Virus record (IMG/VR): IMGVR_UViG_3300003690_000057
Coordinates: 1 to 33,079 of that record
DNA: 33,079 nt
Direction: 5' to 3' (one strand)
From: a virus
Under the pieces are notes generated by a model. That model saw nothing but the letters and a program-made list of their open reading frames with translations, had not been told where the DNA came from and ran no database searches. Positions 2,591 through 29,095 of this stretch are shown in pieces. The position numbers were made by a program, and so were the translations under genes. Position 1 is the first letter of the stretch; each line of letters opens with the position of its first letter.

Positions 2591-2791
2591 CTAACTAAAT
2601 GAAGATCCGCAGCCGCAAGTAGTATTTGCTGCCGGGTTATTAAATACAAATCCCTCTTGCTGTAGTGTGGCTATGTAATCTACCGTAGTGTCCTTTAGAA
2701 TCCCAGCACTCATAGCTGCAATCCTAATAGACTCGCCGGCTTCTAAAACCTTGGTGATGCGCTCCGTTGCTTTATCAGTAAATTGTATCAT
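2591..2791 (-). CDS. Shortened IscA/HesB-like Fe-S protein
   Basis: A 66-residue protein starting at ATG 2791; a longer open frame begins at 2854 but would overlap the RNR end and adds a non-homologous stretch. The N-terminus MIQFTDKATERITKVL and the C-terminus GFVFNNPAANTTCGCGSSFS are textbook A-type Fe-S carrier sequence. Normal IscA/ErpA proteins are about 107-115 residues and carry a first ligand cysteine in a GGCSG loop; here about 40 residues containing that loop and the central sheet are missing, leaving only the C-terminal CGC pair. It may act as a dimer using two cysteines per subunit, or may have another role. It follows the RNR by 10 bases and precedes iscU by 12. Confidence 0.82.
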   Translation of the reverse strand: MIQFTDKATERITKVLEAGESIRIAAMSAGILKDTTVDYIATLQQEGFVFNNPAANTTCGCGSSFS

Positions 2792-2801
2792 CTTTATATA
2801 A

Positions 2802-5228
2802 CTAGCCGCACTTCGCAAAACCGCAATTATTACAAGTAACGCAGCCCTCCACATATACTAATCCTTCGGTTCCACACTCGCCACAAGTCTTTTCAGTGGC
2901 CGTCTGTCCGTCTGGAATATAGTTCTTTAGTATCCTCGCAATACACTTGGCGAAACTAAACATATCACTATCACGATCCTTTTGTAGTTGTTCAACTACG
3001 TATTGAATGTTGGATCCGTGACGAAGACCAAGTGAAATCATGCGCGTGAAAGCTGAATGATTAGGATTATCAAAAACTTTAACAAGATCCTTTACAATAA
3101 TATGATCTCCGTTCTTGCCAACTTTTAGATCGTAAACAGAATTCATCGTCTTCCTTGGATTCTTAACCAGAATGCCTTCGGCCTTATCACGGGGAATTTC
3201 AATCAAGTTAGAGAGGCCTCCCATAACTTCGTAAGGTTTGTCGTCCATAAGGCCCACCACAATGATCCACTTCTCACCTTGTATCGTGGTGTGATGAATA
3301 CTACAGGGAAGCTCGATGGGGCGCTTGGGTGCTCTATGTTGCGGAAACTCCTTGTCTTTGGGCGCATCGCTCACGAGGACACCCGACCGGGCGCCTTCAA
3401 CATAAACTGTAATTCCTTTAAGTCCCTGGCGCCAACCTTCCATGTATAATTCCCCCACCAACGCAGGGTCCGTACCTTTGGGAAGGTTAATGGTAGAACT
3501 AATACTATGATCGATACTCTGTTGAATTGCGGCCTGCACTGCAACACGCTGTTGCCAATCAATGCTATCCGATTCAACAAAAAATGCCGGCAATGGCCCG
3601 GGCTCTTTGAAGGGATGCCAATCTAGCCATGCGCGCGCATTGTGATGGAATACTTCATACTCCAACCATCGATCACCTAGCTCGTCGAGGTGATCGGCCT
3701 CTAGATGCTGTTCGTCGTGTGAAAGCTTGCGCCGGCGTATGTAAGAGTTCCGGAATACCGGCTCTAGTCCCGAAGAAGTCTGCGACATAATAGAAACTGA
3801 TCCGGTAGGAGCATTGGTTAAGATTGAAATGTTGCGGCGACCATGCTGAGCAATTAGCTGCTTAAGATTCTCAGGAAGCCGTTGGATAAACTCGTTGTTT
3901 TCCTCTACGCTCCAGTCAAAAGCTGGAAACGCACCACGTTCTTGGGCAAGATAGATGCTCTCTTCATAGGCAGCGTCGCGTAAGGTACGATAGATTTTTT
4001 CAATAATTACAAGGGCTTCGCCACTATCATAGGCTAGATTTAAACAAGCCATCGCGTCGGCCAGCCCATGAGTACCCAAACCGGTACGCCGGCCATTAGA
4101 GGCGGCGCCATGTAGCTTGTTCCACAACTCTTTCTCGTCTTGTGTATCGGCTACTCTCCGGATGTTTTCTAGCTTCTCCAGCTCCAATTCCACTAAGTCG
4201 TCAGATAGACGCATCCCTATGGCCGCTACCTCACGAAGCTTACCAAAGTCAAACTCTGCATTTTTTTCAAAAGAATTTTTTACGAGGCTTTTTAAATTCA
4301 AAGACAAAAGCCTACACGAGTCATAGGCAGATAATGGTATCTCCCCACAAGGATTAGTCGTCTTAGTTTCAAACTCTGGATAAGAGTGGGCCGGGAGGTT
4401 TTTAGTAATATTGTCCCACATCAAAAGGCCCGGCTCAGCAGTTGTGGTGGCAGATTCAATGATCTTATTCCACAAAGCCAGCGCATCTATCTCGGCACTA
4501 TATTCAGGAATCTCCGCATCGACCGGAAACTGCAAAGTAAATGATTCTTTGTTCTCAACGGCTTCCATGAAGCTATCGCTTATTTTCACTGAGATATTAG
4601 CCCCCGTTACTTTGGTGAGGTCCTTCTTCATTGTGATAAATTCTTGAATGTCAGGATGGCGAACATCCATCGAAATCATAAGGGCTCCCCGTCGACCATT
4701 CTGTCCAATCATACGGCAGACATAAGAATAGAAATCAGCAAAACTCCAAGCCCCAGTAGTAGTCCGAGCAGAATTATTGACAACGCCGCCGGTAGGGCGT
4801 AAACTACTAATGTCGAGGCCGACACCGCAACGCCGCTTAAAAAGATTGGCCAGGTCCTTGCCGGCGTCCATAATAGACGAAATATTGTCCTCTGGATTAT
4901 CAACCACAACACAGTTAGAGAGGGAAACATTAACATAATCATTTCCAATCCCCATCATGGGAGAGCCTTGGGGCACGATGTATTTGAAATTCTTAAAGAA
5001 AGAATAAATTTCACCTTCGGAAAGATGATTTGACTTCCGGGTAATAAACTTGTCCTCTATTCGTGCGAATTCTTTAGCAAGACGACGATGCATATCGTCC
5101 GGACTCTTTTCAACAAAATTTCCTTTTTTGTCCTTCAAGCAGTACTTTGTCATAAAGACATTTGTCGCCAGTTCGTCCCCATTAAAATACTCAAGTGTCG
5201 TCTCTTTTACAGTGCCTTCATCAAACAT
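2802..5228 (-). CDS. nrdJ: Class II (adenosylcobalamin-dependent) ribonucleotide reductase
   Basis: Converts ribonucleotides to deoxyribonucleotides for phage DNA synthesis. It shows SNCVVVD (first redox cysteine), NPCGEI (thiyl-radical cysteine), YDSCRLLSLNL (second redox cysteine), TNAPTGSVS (phosphate-binding region) and a C-terminal four-cysteine segment CGECG-CVTC-CGF-C that regenerates the active site, all typical of class II NrdJ. No R2/NrdB gene is adjacent, as expected, because the radical comes from vitamin B12 rather than a diiron protein. I chose ATG 5228 (808 residues) because GGAGG lies 8 bases upstream; upstream in-frame ATG 5243 lacks a good ribosome site and overlaps the helicase gene. 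It starts 4 bases after the helicase stop. Confidence 0.93.
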   Translation of the reverse strand: MFDEGTVKETTLEYFNGDELATNVFMTKYCLKDKKGNFVEKSPDDMHRRLAKEFARIEDKFITRKSNHLSEGEIYSFFKNFKYIVPQGSPMMGIGNDYVNVSLSNCVVVDNPEDNISSIMDAGKDLANLFKRRCGVGLDISSLRPTGGVVNNSARTTTGAWSFADFYSYVCRMIGQNGRRGALMISMDVRHPDIQEFITMKKDLTKVTGANISVKISDSFMEAVENKESFTLQFPVDAEIPEYSAEIDALALWNKIIESATTTAEPGLLMWDNITKNLPAHSYPEFETKTTNPCGEIPLSAYDSCRLLSLNLKSLVKNSFEKNAEFDFGKLREVAAIGMRLSDDLVELELEKLENIRRVADTQDEKELWNKLHGAASNGRRTGLGTHGLADAMACLNLAYDSGEALVIIEKIYRTLRDAAYEESIYLAQERGAFPAFDWSVEENNEFIQRLPENLKQLIAQHGRRNISILTNAPTGSVSIMSQTSSGLEPVFRNSYIRRRKLSHDEQHLEADHLDELGDRWLEYEVFHHNARAWLDWHPFKEPGPLPAFFVESDSIDWQQRVAVQAAIQQSIDHSISSTINLPKGTDPALVGELYMEGWRQGLKGITVYVEGARSGVLVSDAPKDKEFPQHRAPKRPIELPCSIHHTTIQGEKWIIVVGLMDDKPYEVMGGLSNLIEIPRDKAEGILVKNPRKTMNSVYDLKVGKNGDHIIVKDLVKVFDNPNHSAFTRMISLGLRHGSNIQYVVEQLQKDRDSDMFSFAKCIARILKNYIPDGQTATEKTCGECGTEGLVYVEGCVTCNNCGFAKCG

Positions 5229-5232
5229 TTGT

Positions 5233-6603
5233 TTAGCCTCCATTATTGTTTCGCTTAAACTTTTTATACGTCTCAACCAAATTCTCTTTTTGTTTTCGCA
5301 CACTTACCTCTACCACTTCGTCTTCTTCACGCGGCGGTAATACCTTAATAGACACGTTGCTCGTATCCATAAGAATAGGAAAAATAATCCCATCGGGACC
5401 ATTCCTATTCTTAGCTATAAATATTCTTCCCCCATTCGTTGTCTTATCTTCGATAGTCCGCGAAATACTAAAAATGAAATCAGCCACAAAGCATTTATTA
5501 AATGCTTCGGAAATTGATTCCATAGTAATAACTTCGGCGTTCAAGCCTGACCTATTTGTCTGGGAGGCGGTCCACACTGGGCACTTATATTCTGACGCAA
5601 TTGCGCGTAGCTCTTCATAAATAGATTCCAATTCGTTCCTTTTCTCTTTAAGAAAGCGAACCGGGCGTAATAAATCACCATAGTCAACAAGAATCATATC
5701 AACATTAATGCTACGCATCTTAAGTTTTTCTAAATGATTTCGAATAGTTTGCGTAGATGCGGTCTTAGTAGGGTATTCCTTAATAATTAACTTACCGTCG
5801 ATGTCCTGAACCTCTTCATAGATCTTTTCTTTGAAAGCGGAAAGACTTTCAAGGGGAATTTTAGTGAGGCACGCATCGTACCGAGAGGCGACTACTGTAT
5901 CTTGAAGTTCAAGAGTATAATGAATAACGGTTTTACCCTCTTTCAGTGCCTGCGTCCCAAGATGTACCAGAGCCATTGACTTGCCGGCTCCAGTCGGAGC
6001 GATGACGACACCCAATTCCTTCTGTCCCAAACCTCCTTTGCACACATTATCAATCAGTGGCCACCCCGTACCGGACGGATTACGAAAACGCGGCTTAAAT
6101 CGCTCCTCGAAGTCTTTTTTATAATCATACCCTTCATCGTTGTTCATTCCAAGTTTGAGAGAATCATTAATCACCTGAGATATTTCATCAAATGATGAGT
6201 TCTGGAGCAGCGCGATAGACTTTACCATCGCCGATTTAAGATTTTGTTTCTTACAGAAGTCTAAAGAGGTGTCTTTAATATATTCTACATCAGCAAGGTC
6301 AGTCACCTGACTACGCACATAGAACTCCCGCACCTGTTTGGCTGATAGTTCATTCTCATTATCCAACTCAGAGCGCAGGATAGTTTTCATAATATCTCGG
6401 GACGGATGAACTCCGTACTTGCGACGATAATTAAAAACCTTGGTCAAAAATAATTTAAGATAATTGAGTTCAAGAAAATTAACATCTAAAACTTCTTCGA
6501 TCTGATCCGCAAACGCGCGGTCGTCTAGAATCACCATGCATAACTTCTCTTGAAAGGATTTACCGTACTTGGAGAAGTTAACAAATTCACCGTTTAATTT
6601 CAT
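5233..6603 (-). CDS. DnaB/gp41-like replicative DNA helicase
   Basis: A hexameric 5'-3' helicase of the DnaB/T4 gp41 family that would unwind the fork and load primase. With the chosen start (about 456 residues), an N-terminal helical domain precedes the RecA-like motor: Walker A APTGAGKS at about 202-209, HYTLELQD (motif H1a), Walker B MILVDYGDLL at about 303-312, TASQTNR (motif H3) and a C-terminal RIFIAKNRNG arginine-finger region. The start is ambiguous: ATG 6603 has AGGA 4 bases upstream; ATG 6615 has no ribosome site, and TTG 6621 is unlikely. A promoter ending at 6621 would start transcription near 6614, which favours 6603. RNR follows after 4 bases. Confidence 0.88.
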   Translation of the reverse strand: MKLNGEFVNFSKYGKSFQEKLCMVILDDRAFADQIEEVLDVNFLELNYLKLFLTKVFNYRRKYGVHPSRDIMKTILRSELDNENELSAKQVREFYVRSQVTDLADVEYIKDTSLDFCKKQNLKSAMVKSIALLQNSSFDEISQVINDSLKLGMNNDEGYDYKKDFEERFKPRFRNPSGTGWPLIDNVCKGGLGQKELGVVIAPTGAGKSMALVHLGTQALKEGKTVIHYTLELQDTVVASRYDACLTKIPLESLSAFKEKIYEEVQDIDGKLIIKEYPTKTASTQTIRNHLEKLKMRSINVDMILVDYGDLLRPVRFLKEKRNELESIYEELRAIASEYKCPVWTASQTNRSGLNAEVITMESISEAFNKCFVADFIFSISRTIEDKTTNGGRIFIAKNRNGPDGIIFPILMDTSNVSIKVLPPREEDEVVEVSVRKQKENLVETYKKFKRNNNGG

Positions 6604-9987: not shown

Positions 9988-10176
9988 TTATTCAGTGTTC
10001 TTTGCTTCTTGAACTTCAAGTCGCAATTCTTGTGCCAAGGCTTTTGTTTCTTGCATAGCCCTACGCACACGCGTCCCTGCGGCGTTATTGCCGCGCTCAA
10101 AAAACTTATCGTGGTCTTCTCGAATATTCTCGAGAAGGGTAATAAGCCGTTCAAGTAAATTTGTTTCAGTACTCAT
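9988..10176 (-). CDS. Hc1/histone H1-like small DNA-binding protein
   Basis: A 62-residue helical protein. The core FFERGNNAAGTRVRRAM followed by ETKALAQELRLEVQEAKN matches the Hc1-like histone H1 family (in Bacteroidota: FYxKGNKAAGTRVRK then LAQEIRxEVQE). Members bind DNA and condense the nucleoid in Chlamydia; the chlamydial protein has a long Lys-rich tail that is absent here. A phage copy might compact DNA or bind alongside the SSB. ATG overlaps the sulfotransferase stop as ATGA. This is one of the few hints to host lineage, but such genes also circulate in phages. Confidence 0.75.
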   Translation of the reverse strand: MSTETNLLERLITLLENIREDHDKFFERGNNAAGTRVRRAMQETKALAQELRLEVQEAKNTE

Positions 10177-10817
10177 GTTGTTCCTTTCTTTTTTCTTGAT
10201 GTCTCTGGAAGTTTTATTTTATATCCAAAGTGTTCTATTACGTCACTGTACTTTTCTCTCACTACTGCTGCTGTATAGGGATCATAATAGTGCTCGTAGC
10301 TTTTTCGATACGTCCCCCTATTACGTCTATGGGGAAAGCTGATATCGTTCTTTTCCGCCACCCCCTGGAGTCCAAAGAGCCCATCTAATTTTTTAACATC
10401 GTTTTCTAGATTTTCGTATTTAATAATAAACTTAAATTTATCAATCCCCATATTAAGCGGATAATATTTGGGGTCTCCTGCCCTCTGTCTTTCATATTTT
10501 TTGGATCTTATCCAAGTATTAAACCTTGCTTTCACCTCTTCCTCAGTCCATCCCTTATCCTTATAAAATTTATAATAACAAGATATTAAATAATCCCATG
10601 GATTTCTAACCACAGTAACCAAATCATAGTCTTTAATCCGCGGGTACGACCCTACTAAATCCACGAATGGTGAGTGTCTGTGGGGGCCGCGTATCCATAC
10701 CTTACTGGGCTCTCTGGTCTTTCTAAAAAGCGCCTTGTAGTAGACCTCGATGGAGGTGGTTGCATGACGAATAGGCCGAAGAAATACAAATTTTTTACCG
10801 TCAGCGATTATTGTCAT
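10173..10817 (-). CDS. Sulfotransferase-like protein
   Basis: A 214-residue protein of the PAPS-dependent sulfotransferase fold, which transfers sulfate from PAPS to sugars, lipids or protein. KFVFLRPIRHATTSIEVYY at 9-27 occupies the place of the 5'-phosphosulfate loop (normally PKTGTTS, here IRHATTS, so the Lys is replaced), and LVTVVRNPWDYLISCYY at 66-82 is an excellent 3'-phosphate motif. The C-terminal part (YDPYTAAVVREKYSDVIEHFGY) is also typical. AGGG lies 7 bases before the ATG. Its position between SSB and the Hc1-like gene gives no functional clue; it may modify host surface or virion glycans. Confidence 0.75.
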   Translation of the reverse strand: MTIIADGKKFVFLRPIRHATTSIEVYYKALFRKTREPSKVWIRGPHRHSPFVDLVGSYPRIKDYDLVTVVRNPWDYLISCYYKFYKDKGWTEEEVKARFNTWIRSKKYERQRAGDPKYYPLNMGIDKFKFIIKYENLENDVKKLDGLFGLQGVAEKNDISFPHRRNRGTYRKSYEHYYDPYTAAVVREKYSDVIEHFGYKIKLPETSRKKKGTT

Positions 10818-11680: not shown

Positions 11681-11704
11681 ACGATCAGCTAATATCCTGA
11701 TCGT
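11681..11704 (-). repeat. Stem-loop upstream of the gp32-like gene
   Basis: Perfect 8-base arms ACGATCAG and CTGATCGT with an 8-base loop, covering the last codons and stop of the FtsZ-like gene, 31 bases before the ssb ATG. It may be a translational operator, an mRNA stability element or a DNA operator. I found no convincing pseudoknot partner for the loop. Confidence 0.5.
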
Positions 11705-12527
11705 CTATAAATGATTGTACCATAGAACTGTACTTAATGCAATAACAATATTTTTGATCATATGTCGTTTGGAAAACTCCGTACGATACGTTGACGCCTG
11801 TGGCAACTTGAGCTTTCACATAACGCTTAATCTTTTGAAACAATGTACCGTCTTCTCTCAGTTCTTCTTCGTTAATACCATAATAATATACCACATCCCG
11901 CGGGTTTGTCAAGTCATAAAACCAGTTTTCTTCTTCTTTTTCAATATCCAAGAGCCCTATTGTGGCTATTCTACTAAGATATGACGGCGTTACAAAGTTT
12001 CCAATTACGGGATCCGAATTTTTAAAAACATTAATCATGTGGATAGTATTGACAATGGCCTGGTTGAGGACATCATAGTACCCCATAATGGGGACATCCC
12101 CCACACTGGCCTCAATTTTTTGATTGTCCAACATCCACACAGCTTCTATCATACCCGATCGCGCATACTCTTGCAAGACATTTCTTACAATTTTTTCCTG
12201 CATTTGCTGAATTCTGCTCCCTAGTTCAAGGTCTGGTTGTATATAAAGCACGGTAATGATGTTGGTTTTAAGCTGATCAAGTAATCGTAATACCCCCCCA
12301 GAAATATCTCCACTCCCTCCAACGACAACCAACACCTCGCTAGCGGTGAACTTAAGTTTTCGTTTGAGAGAAGGAAAGTTCTCATCATAATCTTCATGGC
12401 TCTTACGTTTCTTGATCGTAATGTCGGCCTCTTTGGTAGTATCAATAGAATAAGTTTCGTACTGTGGAAACTTAGCAAATGTTTTCGCAATACCACAACC
12501 TGCGCTGCCTAGCCCCACCACTATCAT
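11685..12527 (-). CDS. Divergent FtsZ/tubulin-superfamily protein
   Basis: A 280-residue protein with the layout of the FtsZ/tubulin GTPase domain. MIVVGLGSAGCGIAK at 1-15 equals the T1 loop (GVGGGGGN in FtsZ); YSIDT at 26-30 equals the VNTD strand; VVVGGSGDISGGVLRLLDQL at 67-86 equals the T4 tubulin signature GGGTGSG and its helix; VLYIQPDLELGSR through IEAVWMLDNQKI at 93-138 equals the strand, helix and 'IPNDKL' region; YYDVLNQAIVNTI at 150-162 follows as in FtsZ. The T7 catalytic NxDxxD is not seen, so GTP hydrolysis or polymerisation may differ. An NAD-binding Rossmann protein is the main alternative, but it would not explain the second glycine loop. Start ATG 12527 overlaps the mazG-like stop as ATGA; GTG 12539 is possible. 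Confidence 0.68.
   Translation of the reverse strand: MIVVGLGSAGCGIAKTFAKFPQYETYSIDTTKEADITIKKRKSHEDYDENFPSLKRKLKFTASEVLVVVGGSGDISGGVLRLLDQLKTNIITVLYIQPDLELGSRIQQMQEKIVRNVLQEYARSGMIEAVWMLDNQKIEASVGDVPIMGYYDVLNQAIVNTIHMINVFKNSDPVIGNFVTPSYLSRIATIGLLDIEKEEENWFYDLTNPRDVVYYYGINEEELREDGTLFQKIKRYVKAQVATGVNVSYGVFQTTYDQKYCYCIKYSSMVQSFIDDQDIS
11885..11912 (-). promoter_or_regulatory. Candidate sigma70-type promoter inside the FtsZ-like gene, for ssb
   Basis: Minus strand TTGACA (11907-11912), 16-base spacer, TATATT (11885-11890); with an 18-base spacer TATTAT also fits. Expected start is near 11878, about 230 bases before ssb, so the transcript would include the stem-loop at 11681-11704. Confidence 0.45.
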
Positions 12528-12838
12528 TCCTCCACCCACTCCAACAAGAAGCCCATATCAAAACCGCCGCGGGAAGTCCGCTTTGCAATTGCCTCTGCTA
12601 GTATCGTCTGTTCATGAATGCCTAGGCGGTGGCAAATAAAATTCATAATTTCCATAATGTCGGCCGCTTCCTCAGCGCATGGATTCTCTACAAACTCCTG
12701 AACTTCTTCTTGAAGCTTTCTCATAGCGTGGCTCTGCAGGCGATCTCCTCGTAGCTGTGAGATGGCAAAGTTCTTGCCATCCTTCTCAATAATTTCAGGT
12801 ATCCGATCGCGCACCAGCTTATGGTAGATCTTTTTCAT
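12524..12838 (-). CDS. MazG-like nucleotide pyrophosphohydrolase
   Basis: A 104-residue all-alpha NTP pyrophosphohydrolase of the MazG/PRA-PH superfamily. KLVRDRIPEIIEKDGK at 7-22 is the characteristic start of the prokaryotic/phage subgroup; KLQEEVQEF then EEAADIMEIM carries the acidic ExxE and ExxD magnesium ligands. It hydrolyses (d)NTPs to monophosphates, either to clear modified nucleotides or to adjust nucleotide or ppGpp pools. ATG overlaps the polymerase stop as ATGA, and its end overlaps the FtsZ-like start, so the three genes are translationally linked. Confidence 0.85.
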   Translation of the reverse strand: MKKIYHKLVRDRIPEIIEKDGKNFAISQLRGDRLQSHAMRKLQEEVQEFVENPCAEEAADIMEIMNFICHRLGIHEQTILAEAIAKRTSRGGFDMGFLLEWVEE

Positions 12839-21716: not shown

Positions 21717-24047
21717 CTACCCTACTCCAAAGGGCGTTACTACGTCACCACTCAAGCCCTCGCGGACGACAGTTGTGGAGAACTCCCTTCCATTATCTAG
21801 TACGAGCTGGACTTTTTTGGTCCCTCCATTCTTGCTAGCAGCTGCAAGATCTCGGCGAAGGCCTCGAATTTCCGCAATCATTGCTTGATTGGTTTGTATA
21901 ACGTTCTTAGTATCGCCGGCGTTTGCCACCAGGGTTCCACTTGGAACAATCGCCAGTTCTTTCTGGTTGCCCTCATTCATACGAATGGGGACGAGGGGGG
22001 AACCTGCCATGGCGCCACTAGCATCTGCAGAAAGCTCGCTCTCTACAGCCTCCGGGGTGAGACCCATAGCGCTAGCAATAGCCTGGACGACACCGCCTCC
22101 TGCAAAGCTCTGCATTCGTTTGGGCTGATGAGATCTAAGTACTCGGCCGCCGCGGCCGAAGTAAGACAGGTCGGCGGTACTCGGGCCCGGCTCTTCTCCG
22201 GGACCCATCGCAGAAACAGCACCACCGACGCCGAGGGCCGCGCCCCCGATGATGGCCAGGCCGGCCAGTGAGAATACCTGCATGCCGGGGATCATCATTA
22301 AAATGGCAGCCATCGCGGTGGCGACGAATAGTGCTGTCGAGCCGAAGTCGTTCAACTTTCCAATCCCTCCGCCAACCCAGGCCATGAATTCAGCAAATTT
22401 TCCAACTAGAGGAATCAACACATTTGTTAAAAGTGGCTCAGTATTCAGATACAGCTGTTTGAAAGCATTTGATAATTGTTCAGTGATCGCCTGCATGTTC
22501 TTGGCTTCTTTCGCGGCCTTTTCCATGGTCATGGCCTCAATAGCCAATTCTTCATTACTTTTACTTAGCATCGCAGCCGTATCAGAAACAGACATCCCCA
22601 GAGCATCGGACATCGCCTTTAATTCTGCGCCACTGAGATTTTCAGCCGCGACGCCGGCTTCGTCCATGGCATCTCTAAGCATCCGGATTCCTTCAGCCGG
22701 ATCCTCATACGAGGCATTTAGCATGTCGATGGCGTTAAGGAAGGGTCCGCCCAATATAGCGTTCAAGCGACCAACCTTTTGTGCGGCGCCCTCAAAAGTA
22801 TCAAATCCTTCCATGAGGCCCAGCATAGCGCCGACTTCGACGCCGACCGCCTTGGCTTGCACCGCCATTTCCTTAAATACGTCCCCGGCGCGAGTGCCAT
22901 AAAGGCTCAAGATATTTTTATTAGCCTCAAACTCCTGACCCAGGTCATTAACATCTATCCCCAAGGACTTCGCAGTCCCCTGCAGATCAAGTAAAAGAGT
23001 CTGCGCTCCCTCCAGGGACATTCCCATGGACTGAGTTGCCGTCTGCATGATTGAGGCTTGCGTTTGGAAAGAGAACCCCATCTCTCCTAAAATGGTTACA
23101 GTATTGGCAATTTCTTCCTGGGTGTCTTTACTATAATAAGTAAAATCAGTGAAAGTGTTCTTGAGAGCGCCCATTGCCTCGGAGGCTTCTTCTAGCGTTA
23201 CGCCAGCAATACGGCCATTGCGCTCAACATCTCTGATTACATCATTAAACTCCTTTCCGGCGCCAGTGGACTTCCGAAAATCAGCAATGACTTTATCCTG
23301 TTCTAAAGCAAACTCAAATGATACCTGAACCAGCTTAAATAAAGCGTTCGCGAGAAGCTCCCCGGACTTAACGGACTCCATCGCTTGGGTAGTGAAGCCC
23401 TGCAGGCCGCCTTCTCCTTTGGTGGCCATGTCAGCAAACGTTTTAAAAGGACCAGAAAGACCGAACATAGACTGGGCGAGGCCATCAAATGTGTCTTCGC
23501 CAAACTTGACATCCTCCGCCAATTCCTCTACTGCTTCGGATGCTTCTCTTATTTTTCGTATGTATTCGTCGTACGCGGCGGCGCGTATGGCCTCGGTGGC
23601 ACCATTTTGTGCTGTTTCTAGGTCGAGAAGCGCTTCGGTATAAAGCCGTTGAGCGTCCCCGGCTTTGGCAAGCTGGTCGGCGTTCTCCGACAGCCGGGCA
23701 CCAAGCTGGACATGCGACTCTGCGAGATTGACGTTAGCTGCCGTCCGCGCGGCAGTTGTTTCATTATAGAGGGACTCTGCACGGGCATATTCATCAGATG
23801 CCGTCCCGTGTGAGGAGGCAACGCGCATAAGCTCATCTTGTTGTTTAATATATTGCTTATTAAGCTCTTCAATTGCGCGCTGTTGCTTATCAACAGAAAG
23901 ATATGACTCTTTGAGAGCGTCATTAAACTTTTGTATGCCTTCGGACGCAGATTTAGGAAACTCTAAGGACTTGAGCTGATCCTGGAGTTTGGCAAACTCC
24001 TTCCGGAGCACTTCAATTTGTTCTGGTGTTATATTGGGAGGGGCCAT
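21717..24047 (-). CDS. Tail tape measure protein
   Basis: A 776-residue protein with the features of a tape measure protein, which sets tail length and is ejected with the DNA. It has a long helical N-terminal half with coiled-coil stretches (IEVLRKEFAKLQDQLKSLE, KQQRAIEELNKQYIKQQDEL), Ala-rich helices throughout, and a hydrophobic region at about 570-615 (ATAMAAILMMIPG, LAGLAIIGGAALGVGGAV) likely to insert in the host membrane. The C-terminus is Gly-rich (SFAGGGVVQAI) with a short final helix. It is second after the tail assembly chaperone region, the usual place. It is comparatively short, so tube length should be modest. Confidence 0.85.
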   Translation of the reverse strand: MAPPNITPEQIEVLRKEFAKLQDQLKSLEFPKSASEGIQKFNDALKESYLSVDKQQRAIEELNKQYIKQQDELMRVASSHGTASDEYARAESLYNETTAARTAANVNLAESHVQLGARLSENADQLAKAGDAQRLYTEALLDLETAQNGATEAIRAAAYDEYIRKIREASEAVEELAEDVKFGEDTFDGLAQSMFGLSGPFKTFADMATKGEGGLQGFTTQAMESVKSGELLANALFKLVQVSFEFALEQDKVIADFRKSTGAGKEFNDVIRDVERNGRIAGVTLEEASEAMGALKNTFTDFTYYSKDTQEEIANTVTILGEMGFSFQTQASIMQTATQSMGMSLEGAQTLLLDLQGTAKSLGIDVNDLGQEFEANKNILSLYGTRAGDVFKEMAVQAKAVGVEVGAMLGLMEGFDTFEGAAQKVGRLNAILGGPFLNAIDMLNASYEDPAEGIRMLRDAMDEAGVAAENLSGAELKAMSDALGMSVSDTAAMLSKSNEELAIEAMTMEKAAKEAKNMQAITEQLSNAFKQLYLNTEPLLTNVLIPLVGKFAEFMAWVGGGIGKLNDFGSTALFVATAMAAILMMIPGMQVFSLAGLAIIGGAALGVGGAVSAMGPGEEPGPSTADLSYFGRGGRVLRSHQPKRMQSFAGGGVVQAIASAMGLTPEAVESELSADASGAMAGSPLVPIRMNEGNQKELAIVPSGTLVANAGDTKNVIQTNQAMIAEIRGLRRDLAAASKNGGTKKVQLVLDNGREFSTTVVREGLSGDVVTPFGVG

Positions 24048-24066: not shown

Positions 24067-24402
24067 CTAGCTTGTAAACGGCCAGCGCAAGCCCGTTTCG
24101 CCTTCGAATGCCCGAACCGATTTCATTAAACTATGTCGCGACGACAACGTCCTGTGATCAGTCAACCCATGCTTAAGATAGGCATCCATATAGCTTTTTT
24201 CTCCCTGCAAGCTCTTCATAAAGGAATTAATCTGAGACTGGGTGCCCATCAACTTAAGAGGGAGCCCCATCCCAGAAGCATACAGGTCTAAAAGCGCTAG
24301 TTTGACTTGGCCGGCGAATTTACTATAGGCTTTAATGCGGCGTTCATTTAACTTGCCATCACGATTATCTAAATAAATAATATTTGTGGTTAAGTCGTCC
24401 AT
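24067..24402 (-). CDS. Small conserved tail-region protein, unknown function
   Basis: A 111-residue soluble, helical protein. The C-terminal half has a distinctive pattern: GEKSYMDAYLKHGLTDHRTL then SVRAFEGETGLRWPF. I recall similar sequences in other T4-like marine phages in the same position, but no function. It lies between the tail assembly chaperone frameshift extension and the tape measure gene, so a chaperone or baseplate-core role is plausible. AAGGGG lies 8 bases before the ATG, and a CTATTTA motif 19 bases before it suggests its own late promoter. Confidence 0.65.
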   Translation of the reverse strand: MDDLTTNIIYLDNRDGKLNERRIKAYSKFAGQVKLALLDLYASGMGLPLKLMGTQSQINSFMKSLQGEKSYMDAYLKHGLTDHRTLSSRHSLMKSVRAFEGETGLRWPFTS

Positions 24403-24448: not shown

Positions 24449-24634
24449 CTACTTCTTTGCCCGGGCCTTCTCAATTTGTTCGTTCTGATCTTTATACTCT
24501 TTAACTAGTCGCTCAACAAACCATTGGCGCAGGGCCACAGGGAGATTATAGGCTTCAAAAAATGACCAGGCGCCGTAATGCTTTAAAACGAAGAACTCTT
24601 CGTAAACGCTTTGTTGGTATTTAGGTGTTAGGCC
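24449..24634 (-). CDS. Frameshift extension of the tail assembly chaperone (no start codon of its own)
   Basis: In the +1 (equivalently -2) frame an open stretch encodes 61 residues after the T-run: GLTPKYQQSVYEEFFVLKHY, then GAWSFFEAYNLPVALRQWFV, ending KARAKK before TAG at 24449-24451. It has the look of a conserved protein domain, yet has no ATG or suitably placed start, and a TGA lies just upstream in this frame. Joining it to residue 281 of the upstream gene gives a 342-residue protein (343 by -2 slippage). The position between tube and tape measure is exactly where tail phages encode a frameshifted chaperone. Confidence 0.7.
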   Translation of the reverse strand, partial: GLTPKYQQSVYEEFFVLKHYGAWSFFEAYNLPVALRQWFVERLVKEYKDQNEQIEKARAKK

Positions 24635-25478
24635 AAAAAAACTGTGCCGTCAAGGGCATCGTCACCTCCCCATCGTGAGAGCAATGATTGCATGCAAAGT
24701 CATAGGCAATGTCGACGTCAGGCTTTACCTTCTCGTAAATGGTTCGCAAATATTTGACGTCCTGCAGGGGCATTTGTTCAATAAATTGGCCTACTTGGGA
24801 GGGATCGGTATGAGTATTCACCGAAACAATCACAAGCTTCAGCAAATCGGTGCTTCGGGTATCAGGGAGCTTCAGCTTTTTCTTCTTCTCGTTGCTCTCC
24901 GACAGCATTCGCTCATCTCTAGAGGTCAAGAGTCTTACTTCTACATCCACCTGAGATTTAGGGAGCGCAAACACAAAAGTGCCAGTGTCGCTCATCTCTA
25001 CGTTTTCCGGTATTTCGGAAGCATCATGACAATCGACCTCCTCCAGATTAAATACCTTCGAGTTTACCTCGCGGCAAGAAGGACACCTAACAGTGGTGTC
25101 ATAAAGGGGACCATAGCCAGTAATCCTAGCTGCAATGAGCAAAGCGTTCTTGTCTCCAATTAATAAACTATCTGCTTTAATGTTTTTGTTTAAAAGGATC
25201 GACTCTAATAAGCGATCGATGGCAAGTCCCTTTTTCAAAAGAGATTCTGAAGTAAGAATATCCTCTTCTTTTGCCGTCATGTGACGTATTTCAACTGTGT
25301 CTATGTCCGCAAGGGGATGGTTTTCATCATAAAAGCGTCCCTTACTGGGGAGATCCACAAAATCTGTAGGGGCTACAAATGAAAACATACCCTCGGACGT
25401 TGTTGCGGCAACGGCGGGGGATCCTGTGTTTTCCGGGGTGGGGGCTCCAAAACGCTCTGAATTTCTTTTCCGAGCCAT
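24621..25478 (-). CDS. Probable tail assembly chaperone / gp26-like baseplate protein with zinc-ribbon cysteines
   Basis: A 285-residue protein. After a disordered N-terminus it reads FSFVAPTDFVDLPSKGRFYD, then VEIRHMTAKEEDILTSESLL, the hallmark opening of the T4 gp26-like baseplate/tail-chaperone family. Two CxxC pairs, CPSC near 136 and CNHC near 268, could bind zinc. It ends MPLTAQFFWPNT, but the codons for FFW are TTT TTT TGG, a run of seven T, and a conserved-looking 61-residue extension continues in the +1/-2 frame. The normal and extended forms would correspond to lambda gpG and gpGT. Position after the tube gene and before the tape measure supports the chaperone role. A TATAAT-like box lies upstream but lacks a -35. 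Confidence 0.75.
   Translation of the reverse strand: MARKRNSERFGAPTPENTGSPAVAATTSEGMFSFVAPTDFVDLPSKGRFYDENHPLADIDTVEIRHMTAKEEDILTSESLLKKGLAIDRLLESILLNKNIKADSLLIGDKNALLIAARITGYGPLYDTTVRCPSCREVNSKVFNLEEVDCHDASEIPENVEMSDTGTFVFALPKSQVDVEVRLLTSRDERMLSESNEKKKKLKLPDTRSTDLLKLVIVSVNTHTDPSQVGQFIEQMPLQDVKYLRTIYEKVKPDVDIAYDFACNHCSHDGEVTMPLTAQFFWPNT
24635..24641 (-). other. Candidate programmed frameshift site (seven T)
   Basis: Zero frame CAG TTT TTT TGG CCT. A +1 slip on TTT-TTT-T keeps perfect Phe-tRNA pairing and gives QFFGLT; a -2 slip gives QFFFGLT. Phage Mu is the established example of a -2 frameshift in this gene type. A sequencing or assembly error in the homopolymer is the competing explanation. 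Confidence 0.6.
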
Positions 25479-25503: not shown

Positions 25504-26085
25504 TTACGCTTCCGTTGCGAATGCAATCGCGGGTCCGGGAGTGTATATGGCATAATCATACCGCATTCCCAGCGTGATGTTAAGCAATTCGGTGTCCTGA
25601 TCGTAATTTAAATCACCGAACTCTGCTTTGGTGATCCAGCCGTTGATCAGCTGCCACGTTCCAACGTCGCCGCCTTCACCGTTAACCTCTTGAATAGTAA
25701 CGATTCCTAGCGCCGCAAGAGCGTCAGCCTTGTTGACGGTGCCGGGGACCTGTTGGCCAAGAACAACATTTTCCTGAATGTCGGGGCGCAACCAGCCCAT
25801 CCCAGCCAGCGCATTCATCAAAAGCGCATTGCCATCAGGATTGATTGAGTTTACAATTACTGCAGTTATTTCGTTCCACTCGACGGAACCAGGATAATAG
25901 TAGGTGTTTCCAAGAAACTTATGATTAGCGGTTCCTACAGTATATCCTGGCTTGGTCACCGACTTGGCCAGATACTTAGCATAAGTAAAAGCCTCGTCGC
26001 CAGTAGGAGAAGCTAAGCCCGGAATCTCCAAGATAAATCTATGTGCTCTTTTAGGCTCAGATAGTGCGCTTGTCCAAAATGGCAT
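25504..26085 (-). CDS. Tail tube protein (gp19-like)
   Basis: A 193-residue tube subunit that stacks into the inner tube carrying DNA. The N-terminus FWTSALSEPKRAHRFILEIPG, then KSVTKPGYTVGTANHKFLGN, and the C-terminus ELLNITLGMRYDYAIY are typical of gp19-family tube proteins of marine T4-like phages. It directly follows the sheath, as in T4 (18-19). GTAGGAG precedes the ATG, and a CTATTTA motif 31 bases upstream suggests a separate late promoter for high expression. Confidence 0.88.
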   Translation of the reverse strand: MPFWTSALSEPKRAHRFILEIPGLASPTGDEAFTYAKYLAKSVTKPGYTVGTANHKFLGNTYYYPGSVEWNEITAVIVNSINPDGNALLMNALAGMGWLRPDIQENVVLGQQVPGTVNKADALAALGIVTIQEVNGEGGDVGTWQLINGWITKAEFGDLNYDQDTELLNITLGMRYDYAIYTPGPAIAFATEA

Positions 26086-26149: not shown

Positions 26150-29095
26150 TTAGTCGTCGAATGACGCTCCCGTTCTGGTGATATTGAAATCAATCGCGAT
26201 ATACTCAATAGCGCGGGTTGGCTTCAAGAAAATCTGTGCGTACATAATGTTCCTATCAACCAATTCCGGAGTGGTAGTGGTCTTATCAAGAACCAGCTTG
26301 TAATCCGACAAACCAAAGTTGGTTTTAATGTCAGCCAAAATCGGTTGCACCAGTGAAATGAAGCGTGCCCAGGTGGTTTCCACATTGGGATCGAACAGAA
26401 GCCGAATGGCAACCTGAGAGATTCTCTTCTTGACAAAGATCATGAGGCGACGGACATTAATTCGATCAAGTGCCGACGGGGTGACTTGCAGGGTCTTCTG
26501 ACCGAAGATTACAATGCCTTCCGCGGGGAACTTGGCAATGGGGTTAATATTCGCAGCATACAGCGTGTCCCGGTCCTTGCGTCGCAGCTGATGGGCCACG
26601 TCTACAACCGGAATACCTGCCGCACCTTCAGTAAGGCCGCCGCGATTGAAGCCTGCGGGAGCAAACCAAACCTGCGTCTTCTTCTGAGAGCTTGAGAACG
26701 TTCCCAAGGCAGCCACAGAAGGCGGTAGCCAAACCATAGATCCCTGGATAGTATCTCGGCATCTTACCCACGGGTAGAAGCAGCAACCATACGAACTGTT
26801 GAGCCCTCGGTCCCTCAGGCTGCTCACCACGCTAGCGAGTCCAGATGCGGTATTATTGCGAGCCGAAGAAGTGTCTTCTGCGCGGGGGGTATAACCTCCG
26901 TTAAGATCTATAATGGCCAAGGCATCCGCACGGTCTTCGCACAGATTTAGTAAGTTAGTGGTTAATCCTTCGTGTCGCATACCAGGAATGGTCGCAAGAT
27001 TCATTTCTACCACTTCTGGATCGGCAATTGAATCAATGGCCTGTCGCACGGAGTTGAAAACATAACTATTGGCATCCGTCGCCGAAGAGGGTAGATTAAA
27101 GGTGGCACTATTAAAGGGGTTAAGCTCTTTAATGTCCAGTCCATCAAAGCCGCCATACAACGGAACCGTAAAACGATCAAATCCCTTGTCCAAAACGCCG
27201 GCGATCGATCCGCTAGTGTTGGTTAAAGAGTTTCCGGCTGCATGAGAGCCTGACTCCCAGTAAGCGTTGGATAAAGTGTCGCCCGCCAAACGAAGGTCGT
27301 CCAGTGTGAAATACATGGACTCTTCAGTTTTGCGCGTCGTTGTATCCTCACCATCAAACATGTTGGCCACGATGCCGCCGCGGGGGCGCAACAAATCAAT
27401 TGTTGAGTCAGCGAAGCGACTACCACCGGCAGTGCGTGACGTCTGTAGCCCCCAATATGCATCGGTGGGATTATTAAGATTCCCCGCGGATGACGAAGTT
27501 CTTAGCTCTGGCGAAGGATAAAGAAGTGAAACATCTAACGTCGAACCACTCACCACCAAGACACTCGACATTGTCGCTGTCGCCAGCTGGGCGAGGAGGG
27601 TCTCGCGGCCGGCCGAGCCTGACTTAATCCAATTCCCGGTGGTGGTGCCGGCGACGATTGCGTCACCCCCATCCTCGTCCAAGTACTTAGTTATGCCCTT
27701 AAAGCCGAAGGGGAGGAGAGCTGGGCTCTCGCCCGCAATCTCCTCGTTGACAGCTACACGAATATAGCTGGAAACGTTATCATAATCGCCGGCCTGGATG
27801 TAGCGTCGCTCATCGACATTCCAAGCAAGAGAGCGGTCTCCCACTTTTCGTGCAACATAATTTAAGGACTCCGGGTTGAGATTTAGATCGTTGAACTGTT
27901 CTATTACCTTTACAACCCCATCGGAGTCTGATAACCGACGCACAACAAGAGAAAACGTACCATAAGGGTCGGCCTCGTTGGTTGATTCCTTAATATCCTG
28001 AACTGAAACCTTCAGATTTCGGTTAGTCCAGTCACCGGGCTGGTTTAGCGCATGCACGGTAAACAACGTGGGCATTTGATCTACTCGATAGCCATTAGCG
28101 ACCGCTCCTCGATTGAGTACATCGCACCCAATAATCGCAGGAGTTTGAGCACCCTGGAGAGGCGCCCTAAAATCATCGCCATCATACGTGGTGTCACGCT
28201 GTAGGGGAACAACAGCTGCAAAGGTTCCACCCGCGGTGGCGTCGTCTAAGATGGCCTCATTAAGAAAACGATCAAATGACTCGCCCAAGAAGTAGTTTAG
28301 CTCACTCTCCACTAGATTTGGGTTGACTCTTTGAGGAGTCGTGTTAAAAACCTTACGAATATATTTTGCACTGGTTCGATCAAAATTAAAAACAGTTTTT
28401 AGCGTCTCAGAGTTAGAGTTAGAATCATTAATAATCAACGTGAACTGACCCTTAGTGGTACCATCGTCTGCCACAATAATACCAGAGCCGCTCGTGCTGG
28501 TACCATCAGTGAGCCGAACGCCGACCGGCCATGCGCTCGCTGTCGCGGCTGCCGGGGGGACGACAGTGCCGTCGGCCATGGTGCCGCTAAGCTGAAGTGT
28601 CGTGGCTGTCTCGGTGGTGTAAACAATTGCAGCGAGGGCGGCGTCGAATGCGCCGAGGGCTGGAGTGGAAGACCCAGTAAGAACTATAATCGCCCACGCC
28701 TTGCCCGCGTCATTGGTCGCGGCGTCAGCATCCCAGCCGGCGGTGCCTACCGTGTCAGACGTGGTCTGTGCGGCTTGAGATCCCAGGAGACGAACATAAG
28801 TGAGGGGAGCACTGTTCTTAAGATAAGCTTGAGCAGCATACGCTCCATAGCTGGGCGCCGCCACATTTGCCCCAAGTCGCCAGACATCGCCGGTCGCACT
28901 CCCGGGGATGGGTGCGCCAAAAACATTTACAAACTCAGAGAACGAATTCACCGTAACTGGCCGTAATCCGGGGCCTTTCTCAGCCCTCCCTATAACAACC
29001 GGTCCGATCCCTGCTGGCGAGGCAGGAAGCTGAGAGTTATCGATTTCATTAACGAAAACTCCGGGTGATACAAATCTAAAATTCTTTACTGACAT
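26150..29095 (-). CDS. Contractile tail sheath protein (gp18-like)
   Basis: A 981-residue sheath subunit; its contraction drives the tube through the host envelope. The N-terminus RFVSPGVFVNEIDNSQLP then GPVVIGRAEKGPG is the classic sheath opening that wraps the neighbouring subunit. The C-terminus FLKPTRAIEYIAIDFNITRT is equally diagnostic. T4 gp18 has 659 residues, so about 300 extra residues, probably in the Ser/Thr/Ala-rich outer domains (roughly 130-230 and 500-620), should decorate the sheath surface. TAGGAG precedes the ATG and a CTATTTA motif lies 35 bases upstream. Confidence 0.93.
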   Translation of the reverse strand: MSVKNFRFVSPGVFVNEIDNSQLPASPAGIGPVVIGRAEKGPGLRPVTVNSFSEFVNVFGAPIPGSATGDVWRLGANVAAPSYGAYAAQAYLKNSAPLTYVRLLGSQAAQTTSDTVGTAGWDADAATNDAGKAWAIIVLTGSSTPALGAFDAALAAIVYTTETATTLQLSGTMADGTVVPPAAATASAWPVGVRLTDGTSTSGSGIIVADDGTTKGQFTLIINDSNSNSETLKTVFNFDRTSAKYIRKVFNTTPQRVNPNLVESELNYFLGESFDRFLNEAILDDATAGGTFAAVVPLQRDTTYDGDDFRAPLQGAQTPAIIGCDVLNRGAVANGYRVDQMPTLFTVHALNQPGDWTNRNLKVSVQDIKESTNEADPYGTFSLVVRRLSDSDGVVKVIEQFNDLNLNPESLNYVARKVGDRSLAWNVDERRYIQAGDYDNVSSYIRVAVNEEIAGESPALLPFGFKGITKYLDEDGGDAIVAGTTTGNWIKSGSAGRETLLAQLATATMSSVLVVSGSTLDVSLLYPSPELRTSSSAGNLNNPTDAYWGLQTSRTAGGSRFADSTIDLLRPRGGIVANMFDGEDTTTRKTEESMYFTLDDLRLAGDTLSNAYWESGSHAAGNSLTNTSGSIAGVLDKGFDRFTVPLYGGFDGLDIKELNPFNSATFNLPSSATDANSYVFNSVRQAIDSIADPEVVEMNLATIPGMRHEGLTTNLLNLCEDRADALAIIDLNGGYTPRAEDTSSARNNTASGLASVVSSLRDRGLNSSYGCCFYPWVRCRDTIQGSMVWLPPSVAALGTFSSSQKKTQVWFAPAGFNRGGLTEGAAGIPVVDVAHQLRRKDRDTLYAANINPIAKFPAEGIVIFGQKTLQVTPSALDRINVRRLMIFVKKRISQVAIRLLFDPNVETTWARFISLVQPILADIKTNFGLSDYKLVLDKTTTTPELVDRNIMYAQIFLKPTRAIEYIAIDFNITRTGASFDD

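Follow-up and report, generated by a model that had tools for sequence, protein, structure and literature searches.

How is a stretch of 61 codons translated when it follows a gp26-like gene in another reading frame and opens without an evident start codon? The gene in question lies between the tail tube and tape measure genes of a viral DNA of 33,079 nucleotides, analysed in full and called the window below, and it carries a run of seven Ts close to its end. The locus raises the possibility that ribosomes change frame on this run, and hence the questions of the direction of the shift and of what the longer product might be for.

Layout of the locus and family of the short product

The gp26-like gene is on the minus strand, from 25478 down to 24621, and its 0-frame product is 285 aa long. 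Its 3' end reads ...ACG GCA CAG TTT TTT TGG CCT AAC ACC TAA. The initial annotation had the gene ending right after TTT TTT TGG, but it ends three codons later, CCT AAC ACC preceding the TAA stop codon at 24623-24621. The +1/-2 frame break that it had described after T7, in a gp26-like gene between tube and tape measure, is itself confirmed on sequence and synteny. The sense codons of the extension, GGC to AAG, occupy 24634-24452 in the +1 (that is, -2) frame and are followed by a TAG at 24451-24449. The features of the locus, with the evidence for each, are as follows.

24621..25478, minus strand: 0-frame gene, gp26-like (T4_baseplate family), short form ('G-like'); PF12322 at 2.2e-15, phrog_150 at 2.4e-15
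24633..24641, minus strand: slip site TTT TTT TGG, with T7 at 24641-24635; clade conservation, codon statistics and re-pairing table
24449..24634, minus strand: +1-frame extension GLTPKYQQSVYEEFFVLKHYGAWSFFEAYNLPVALRQWFVERLVKEYKDQNEQIEKARAKK, 61 codons and stop; no stops in 43 lineages, third-position substitution excess
24650..24652, minus strand: TGA closing the +1 frame ahead of the slip site; 38 of 43 lineages share a +1-frame stop here
24662..24671, minus strand: Shine-Dalgarno-like GGGGAGGTGA, its start 30 nt ahead of the slip codon; anti-SD energy
24449..25478, minus strand: predicted fusion, long form ('GT-like'), 342 aa, junction QFF-GLTPK; translation with TGGC taken as one step
25504..26085, minus strand: tail tube gene, upstream neighbour; phrog_4542 at 1.3e-16
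21717..24047, minus strand: tape measure gene, downstream neighbour; phrog_167 at 1.3e-10
24067..24402, minus strand: 111-aa ORF between the extension and the tape measure gene; conserved in 41 of 42 loci by tblastn

Among loci with enough flanking sequence, the tube gene is upstream of the gp26-like gene in 41 of 41 and the tape measure gene downstream in 31 of 31. Searches of Pfam and PHROG with the 111-aa ORF gave no family match. A Pfam match of the extension to DNA_pol3_theta (E 0.042) is below the cut-off and was dismissed as chance. The tail sheath protein (26150-29095, minus strand) has 981 aa, about twice the 496 positions of the PHROG 23 model, and the spread of its PHROG 23 match over residues 8-979 suggests large inserted domains.

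The 0-frame protein is a member of the T4_baseplate (gp26/gp51) family, scoring 57.4 bits against PF12322 (curated cut-off 24.5) over positions 9-219 of a model of 219, and it also matches PHROG 150, 'baseplate hub'. Its AlphaFold2 model has a pLDDT of 83, with the N-terminal 32 residues disordered, and the top Foldseek matches in BFVD include predicted baseplate hub proteins of SP-15 and T4-like phages. Foldseek against the PDB returned nothing significant for the short form (the HK97 chaperone 2ob9 at E 2.5, prob 0.21), and the sole match of a PDB sequence search was a de novo protein at E 0.067. Because no solved structure is matched significantly, the protein is not assigned to the lambda chaperone fold family; it belongs to the gp26/gp51 family, and the likeness to lambda G/GT drawn below concerns the way the gene works. 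The label of tail assembly chaperone, already given in the initial annotation, holds as a putative function on synteny and on homology to T4 gp26 and gp51, both hub assembly chaperones.

Conservation of the slip site and direction of the predicted shift

T7 runs by themselves are common in the window (four on the plus strand, two on the minus strand), and the slip site was assessed by its conservation in relatives, namely 80 IMG/VR contigs and one metagenome-assembled-genome contig of 47-70% identity, which with the window make 82 sequences. All 82 have TTY TTT TGG CCT in the 0 frame and the extension in the +1 frame, so that both the site and the frame relation are conserved, as had been proposed for homologues. 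The two Phe codons are TTT TTT in 79 and TTC TTT in three. Neither 6- or 8-T versions nor a continuous frame, the outcomes named beforehand as speaking against a frameshift, occur among the 80 nearest relatives. In the 43 non-redundant lineages used for codon and substitution statistics, the second Phe codon is always TTT (usage 0.75, p 3e-6) and the Pro codon always CCT (usage 0.23, p 3e-28), although these p-values overstate the case because they treat the lineages as independent. Constraint on CCT is expected in part, since GGC CTN, if dual-coded, would specify Gly-Leu in the +1 frame as well. The ACG GCA codons before the T-run (window 24642-24650, minus strand) are synonymously conserved as well (37/40 and 33/42; p 3e-25 and 2e-11), and neither protein nor RNA structure offers an explanation.

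Considered alone, the window site is compatible in its pairing with a -2 shift as well as with a +1 shift. The tail chaperone of phage Mu, encoded at the same gene position, is made by a -2 frameshift and thus has the same frame relation. A Mu-like -2 ribosomal shift at the T-run of the window would give the product QFFFGLTPK. To distinguish between the two directions, re-pairing was tabulated for 138 sites from relatives with the same frame relation: 98 are TTT TTT TGG, 25 TTT CTT TGG, eight TTC TTT TGG, two TTT CTA TGG and five are single forms. Cognate re-pairing of tRNA-Phe after a +1 shift (UUU onto UUU or UUC) is available at 138 of 138 sites. After a -2 shift it is available at the 100 sites with T6-T7, the window among them; the other 38, of the same family and frame relation, lack it, while all have +1 re-pairing. 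The incompatible forms are TTC TTT TGG, TTT CTT TGG, TTT CTA TGG, TTC TTT CGT, TTT CTA TTC and TTT CTT TAC. Variant-site re-pairing thus excludes -2, the direction used by Mu, as the common mechanism of this family. Because the variants allow +1 in all cases and -2 in only some, a +1 shift is much likelier than a -2 shift in the window too, and I regard the latter as unlikely there. The initial annotation had proposed that a T7 supporting +1 would be a less common solution in a T4-like phage: the direction is borne out, but not the rarity, since the predicted +1 shift is the rule in a large group and no one-off in a T4-like phage.

A programmed +1 ribosomal frameshift therefore very probably gives a second, longer product from this gp26-family gene. 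The majority of ribosomes would terminate at 24621 and release the short, gp26-like putative chaperone. On some ribosomes at UUU UUU UGG, the P-site peptidyl-tRNA-Phe would slide one base forward onto the overlapping UUU, probably during a pause with UUU in the P site and UGG as the A-site codon. These ribosomes would continue in the +1 frame and make the long product, 342 aa with a tail added at the C terminus, so that the cell would contain mainly the short form and some of the long one. A slip at either Phe codon yields the identical peptide, QFFGLTPK. Comparison of sequences shows the site, the frame, the coding nature of the extension, the lack of an alternative entry, the homology and the synteny; the frameshift event itself, its efficiency, which of the two UUU codons slips and the chaperone role are inferred.

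The closest functional parallel is the lambda-like G/GT frameshift family (Xu et al. 2004, as reviewed in PMC5009743). In both cases, here at the level of sequence, one gene between tube and tape measure has a short and an extended product, the slip site is near the end of the short gene and the extension has no start of its own. The shift in lambda is -1, in contrast to +1 in the window, and the window protein belongs to PF12322 and has no significant match to solved chaperones. On the model of lambda G/GT, and given the homology to T4 gp26/gp51, the two forms would act as a pair in assembly of the hub and tape-measure complex, the tail being what sets gp51 apart. On the lambda analogy, the shared domain would bind the tape measure or the hub complex, and the tail would recruit the next component or time its arrival.

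What might promote a forward shift at this site? The bacterial prfB +1 site is CUU UGA. Phage SPP1 makes 17.1* by a +1 shift at CCCUAA (PMC6316719), and the tail chaperone of the haloarchaeal virus HSTV-2, which is likewise that of a myovirus, involves a shift described as 'very likely +1' (PMC5009743). As in these cases, the P-site tRNA in the window would advance by one base and pair with an overlapping codon, cognate or near-cognate. Unlike the known +1 sites, the window has UGG as its A-site codon, neither a stop nor a rare Pro codon, and has no SD at the prfB spacing. RNAalifold, run on the 43 lineages in seven windows around the site, gave energies no better than those of shuffled columns, and thus no conserved structure. 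There is a Shine-Dalgarno-like stretch, more conserved than the encoded amino acids demand, starting near -30 in the window clade, with an anti-SD energy of -9.8 kcal/mol versus -6.2 after synonymous resampling (control windows of the same gene: -3.3 to -6.2). A similar stretch is found about 20-30 nt ahead of the slip site, at about the same place, in three +1 groups (the window clade and the groups of immuto and L271, see below). In a -1 cyanophage group it lies closer, from about -19 to some 10 nt ahead of the slip site, a spacing known from dnaX. The SD spacing of prfB-type +1 stimulators is much shorter than that of the window clade, so that a motif about 20 nt upstream is too far for this known type. 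An internal ATG is present at -18 in 37 of the 43 lineages of the window clade, and the SD-like motif could be either a stimulator or a ribosome-binding site for this ATG. If the +1 reading is right, the UUU UGG site, with no stop codon and no structure, would offer a naturally occurring +1 type, represented by many aligned variants, for studying what drives forward shifts.

Entry into the extension

The extension had been called conserved-looking, and the 43 lineages bear this out: the +1 frame contains no stop, the other two frames of the same nucleotides contain 111 and 246, and substitutions by codon position are 0.32/0.18/0.56, an excess at third positions. By these measures the extension is protein-coding and under purifying selection. 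The +1 frame is shut at -11 relative to the T-run in 38 of the 43 lineages (in the window by the TGA at 24652-24650, 8 nt ahead of the run), and therefore a start further upstream cannot supply the extension. As the 0 frame terminates at +18 in 42 of 43, the shift is confined to a median of 29 nt with one slippery run.

The extension could instead be a separate small gene, with its own start or with reinitiation after the 0-frame stop. Such an arrangement has precedents among relatives: an ATG comes just past the 0-frame stop in 27 of 27 non-redundant cyanophage-type genes, and the extensions of two loci, L280 and L286, have their own ATG. The initial annotation had described the window extension as free of any start codon, which is true of ATG and TTG and not of GTG, present once, at codon index 32, too far in to yield the whole extension. 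A start codon of any kind is absent from the first 30 codons in 30 of the 43 lineages, and the residues FFGL at the slip site are invariant in the fused reading. For the window, initiation of a separate gene is accordingly quite improbable.

RNA polymerase slippage on T7 is a third way of joining the frames, in which the mRNA would be one U shorter and ribosomes would not shift at all. Most members do have a 7-T homopolymer, but a run of seven is short for polymerase slippage. Moreover, L050, L076, L079, the L271 group and part of the immuto group keep the frame relation with 3-4 Ts, which excludes polymerase slippage as the common mechanism and makes it very unlikely in the window. Finally, a pseudogene remnant or an assembly error, that is, a single-base indel in a once continuous gene, is suggested by the frame break and nothing further, and the homologues refute it: 82 sequences share the break, as do cultured phages whose hosts are unrelated, and the extension is under purifying selection. 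A +1 ribosomal shift is retained as the most probable way into the extension.

The wider family and the relation to T4 gp26 and gp51

The +1 relation is also found in Microcystis phage Mel-JY01, Flavobacterium phage immuto, Rhodothermus phage RM378, Bacillus phage SP-15, Listeria phage LIS04, Streptococcus phage SagM-GXN1 and the huge-phage genome LR756508; further +1 groups are the immuto-like one (73 loci) and that of L271 (13 loci, TTC TTT TGG). In other members it is the -1 frame that carries the extension, following U UUU UUC or U UUU UUG: the huge phage LR756511 and close contigs, Agrobacterium phage Atu_ph07, Rhizobium phages IC12 and RL38J1, and the cyanophage group (78 usable loci). 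In the 27 cyanophage-type genes mentioned above, TTT TTC is in every case preceded by a codon with a final T (AGT, GAT, TCT, AAT), which completes the heptamer; the ATG past their stop makes separate or coupled initiation a possibility in these genes. The heptamer is identical to the UUUUUUC at which SPP1, a siphovirus, makes 17.5* from 17.5 by a -1 shift (PMC6316719), in contrast to the predicted +1 shift at the window site. L280 and L286, which branch within the +1 group, no longer have the slip site (TTC TTG TAT and TTC CTT TGG CCA, around 2700-3000) and carry the extension in another frame. Fusion is therefore not universally needed, and these two loci are a natural experiment on that need. 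In a tree of 58 gp26-type domains, +1 members require three label changes and -1 members four (shuffled means 18.7 and 14.2), with a deep branching order that is unsure because of long branches. None of the public phage records examined annotates the frameshift; the extension is missing, cut short, or entered on its own as a hypothetical or 'hub assembly catalyst' gene.

The family also includes two T4 proteins. PF12322 covers residues 1-206 of the 208 of T4 gp26, i.e. the whole protein; in gp51 it covers residues 1-201, and a further 48 residues follow. The -1 extension of the cyanophages has matches to PHROG 634, 'baseplate hub assembly catalyst' (7.9e-27), and to the C-terminal portion of PHROG 150. 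In profile comparisons, cyanophage fusions match gp51 at 97.8%, colinearly across the junction (FFRLI... with VFKLL...), and cyanophage extensions alone at 95.7%. Pooled +1 fusions match pooled -1 fusions plus gp51 at 97-99%, colinearly to the end of gp51, and pooled +1 extensions alone match pooled -1 plus gp51 at 45-65%. The match of the window extension alone to the gp51 extension is at 0.1%, and that of the window clade alone to gp51 is not significant; the link from the window to gp51 is thus one that runs, by profile similarity, via the cyanophage proteins and full-length profiles. Domain coverage and profile matches together indicate that gp51 combines a gp26-type domain with what is probably the same kind of tail, read in a single frame, and that gp26 corresponds to the version lacking a tail. 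With a long gp51 and a short gp26, the T4 hub chaperones look like a split equivalent of lambda G/GT. They share the Pfam family of the window protein and its division into a domain alone and a domain with C-terminal extension, and differ in being two separate genes, that of gp26 on the other strand, with no frameshift. T4 would look like a case of duplication in place of frameshift.

An attractive hypothesis, which I hold to be probable though less firmly than the +1 shift itself, is that T4 comes within the G/GT rule: gp26 and gp51 would represent a single ancestral tail chaperone in its short and its long form, both of which relatives make from one gene, by -1 shift in cyanophages and +1 in the window group, or from a separate start where the slip site is lost, the direction of the shift having changed and the two-product outcome having been kept. 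A review of recoding describes G-T frameshifting as a conserved feature of long-tailed phages 'except T4' (PMC5009743), while a review of the T4 tail describes gp26 and gp51 as hub assembly chaperones and gp51 as essential and of unknown function (PMC3004832). If the two are a split G/GT pair, this suggests why T4, the listed exception, has two separate related genes, and both puzzles share one testable answer. A search of the open literature, of incomplete coverage, found no paper linking gp26 or gp51 with a frameshift, and the wider gp26/gp51 result is new as far as could be found. The window case alone is a new example within a known phenomenon; the T4 link adds most of the significance.

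Some other genes of the window are recorded here. Two adjacent iron-sulphur cluster genes, NifU_N/IscU-like (2174-2578, 9.5e-52) and Fe-S_biosyn/IscA-like (2591-2854, 9.7e-7), both on the minus strand, lie beside a ribonucleotide reductase (2802-5303). A sulfotransferase-family protein is encoded at 10173-10817 (minus strand; PF03567, 4e-6). A 284-aa protein at 11685-12539 (minus strand), for which Pfam gave zero matches, contains GGSGDISGG, which by eye resembles the tubulin/FtsZ signature.
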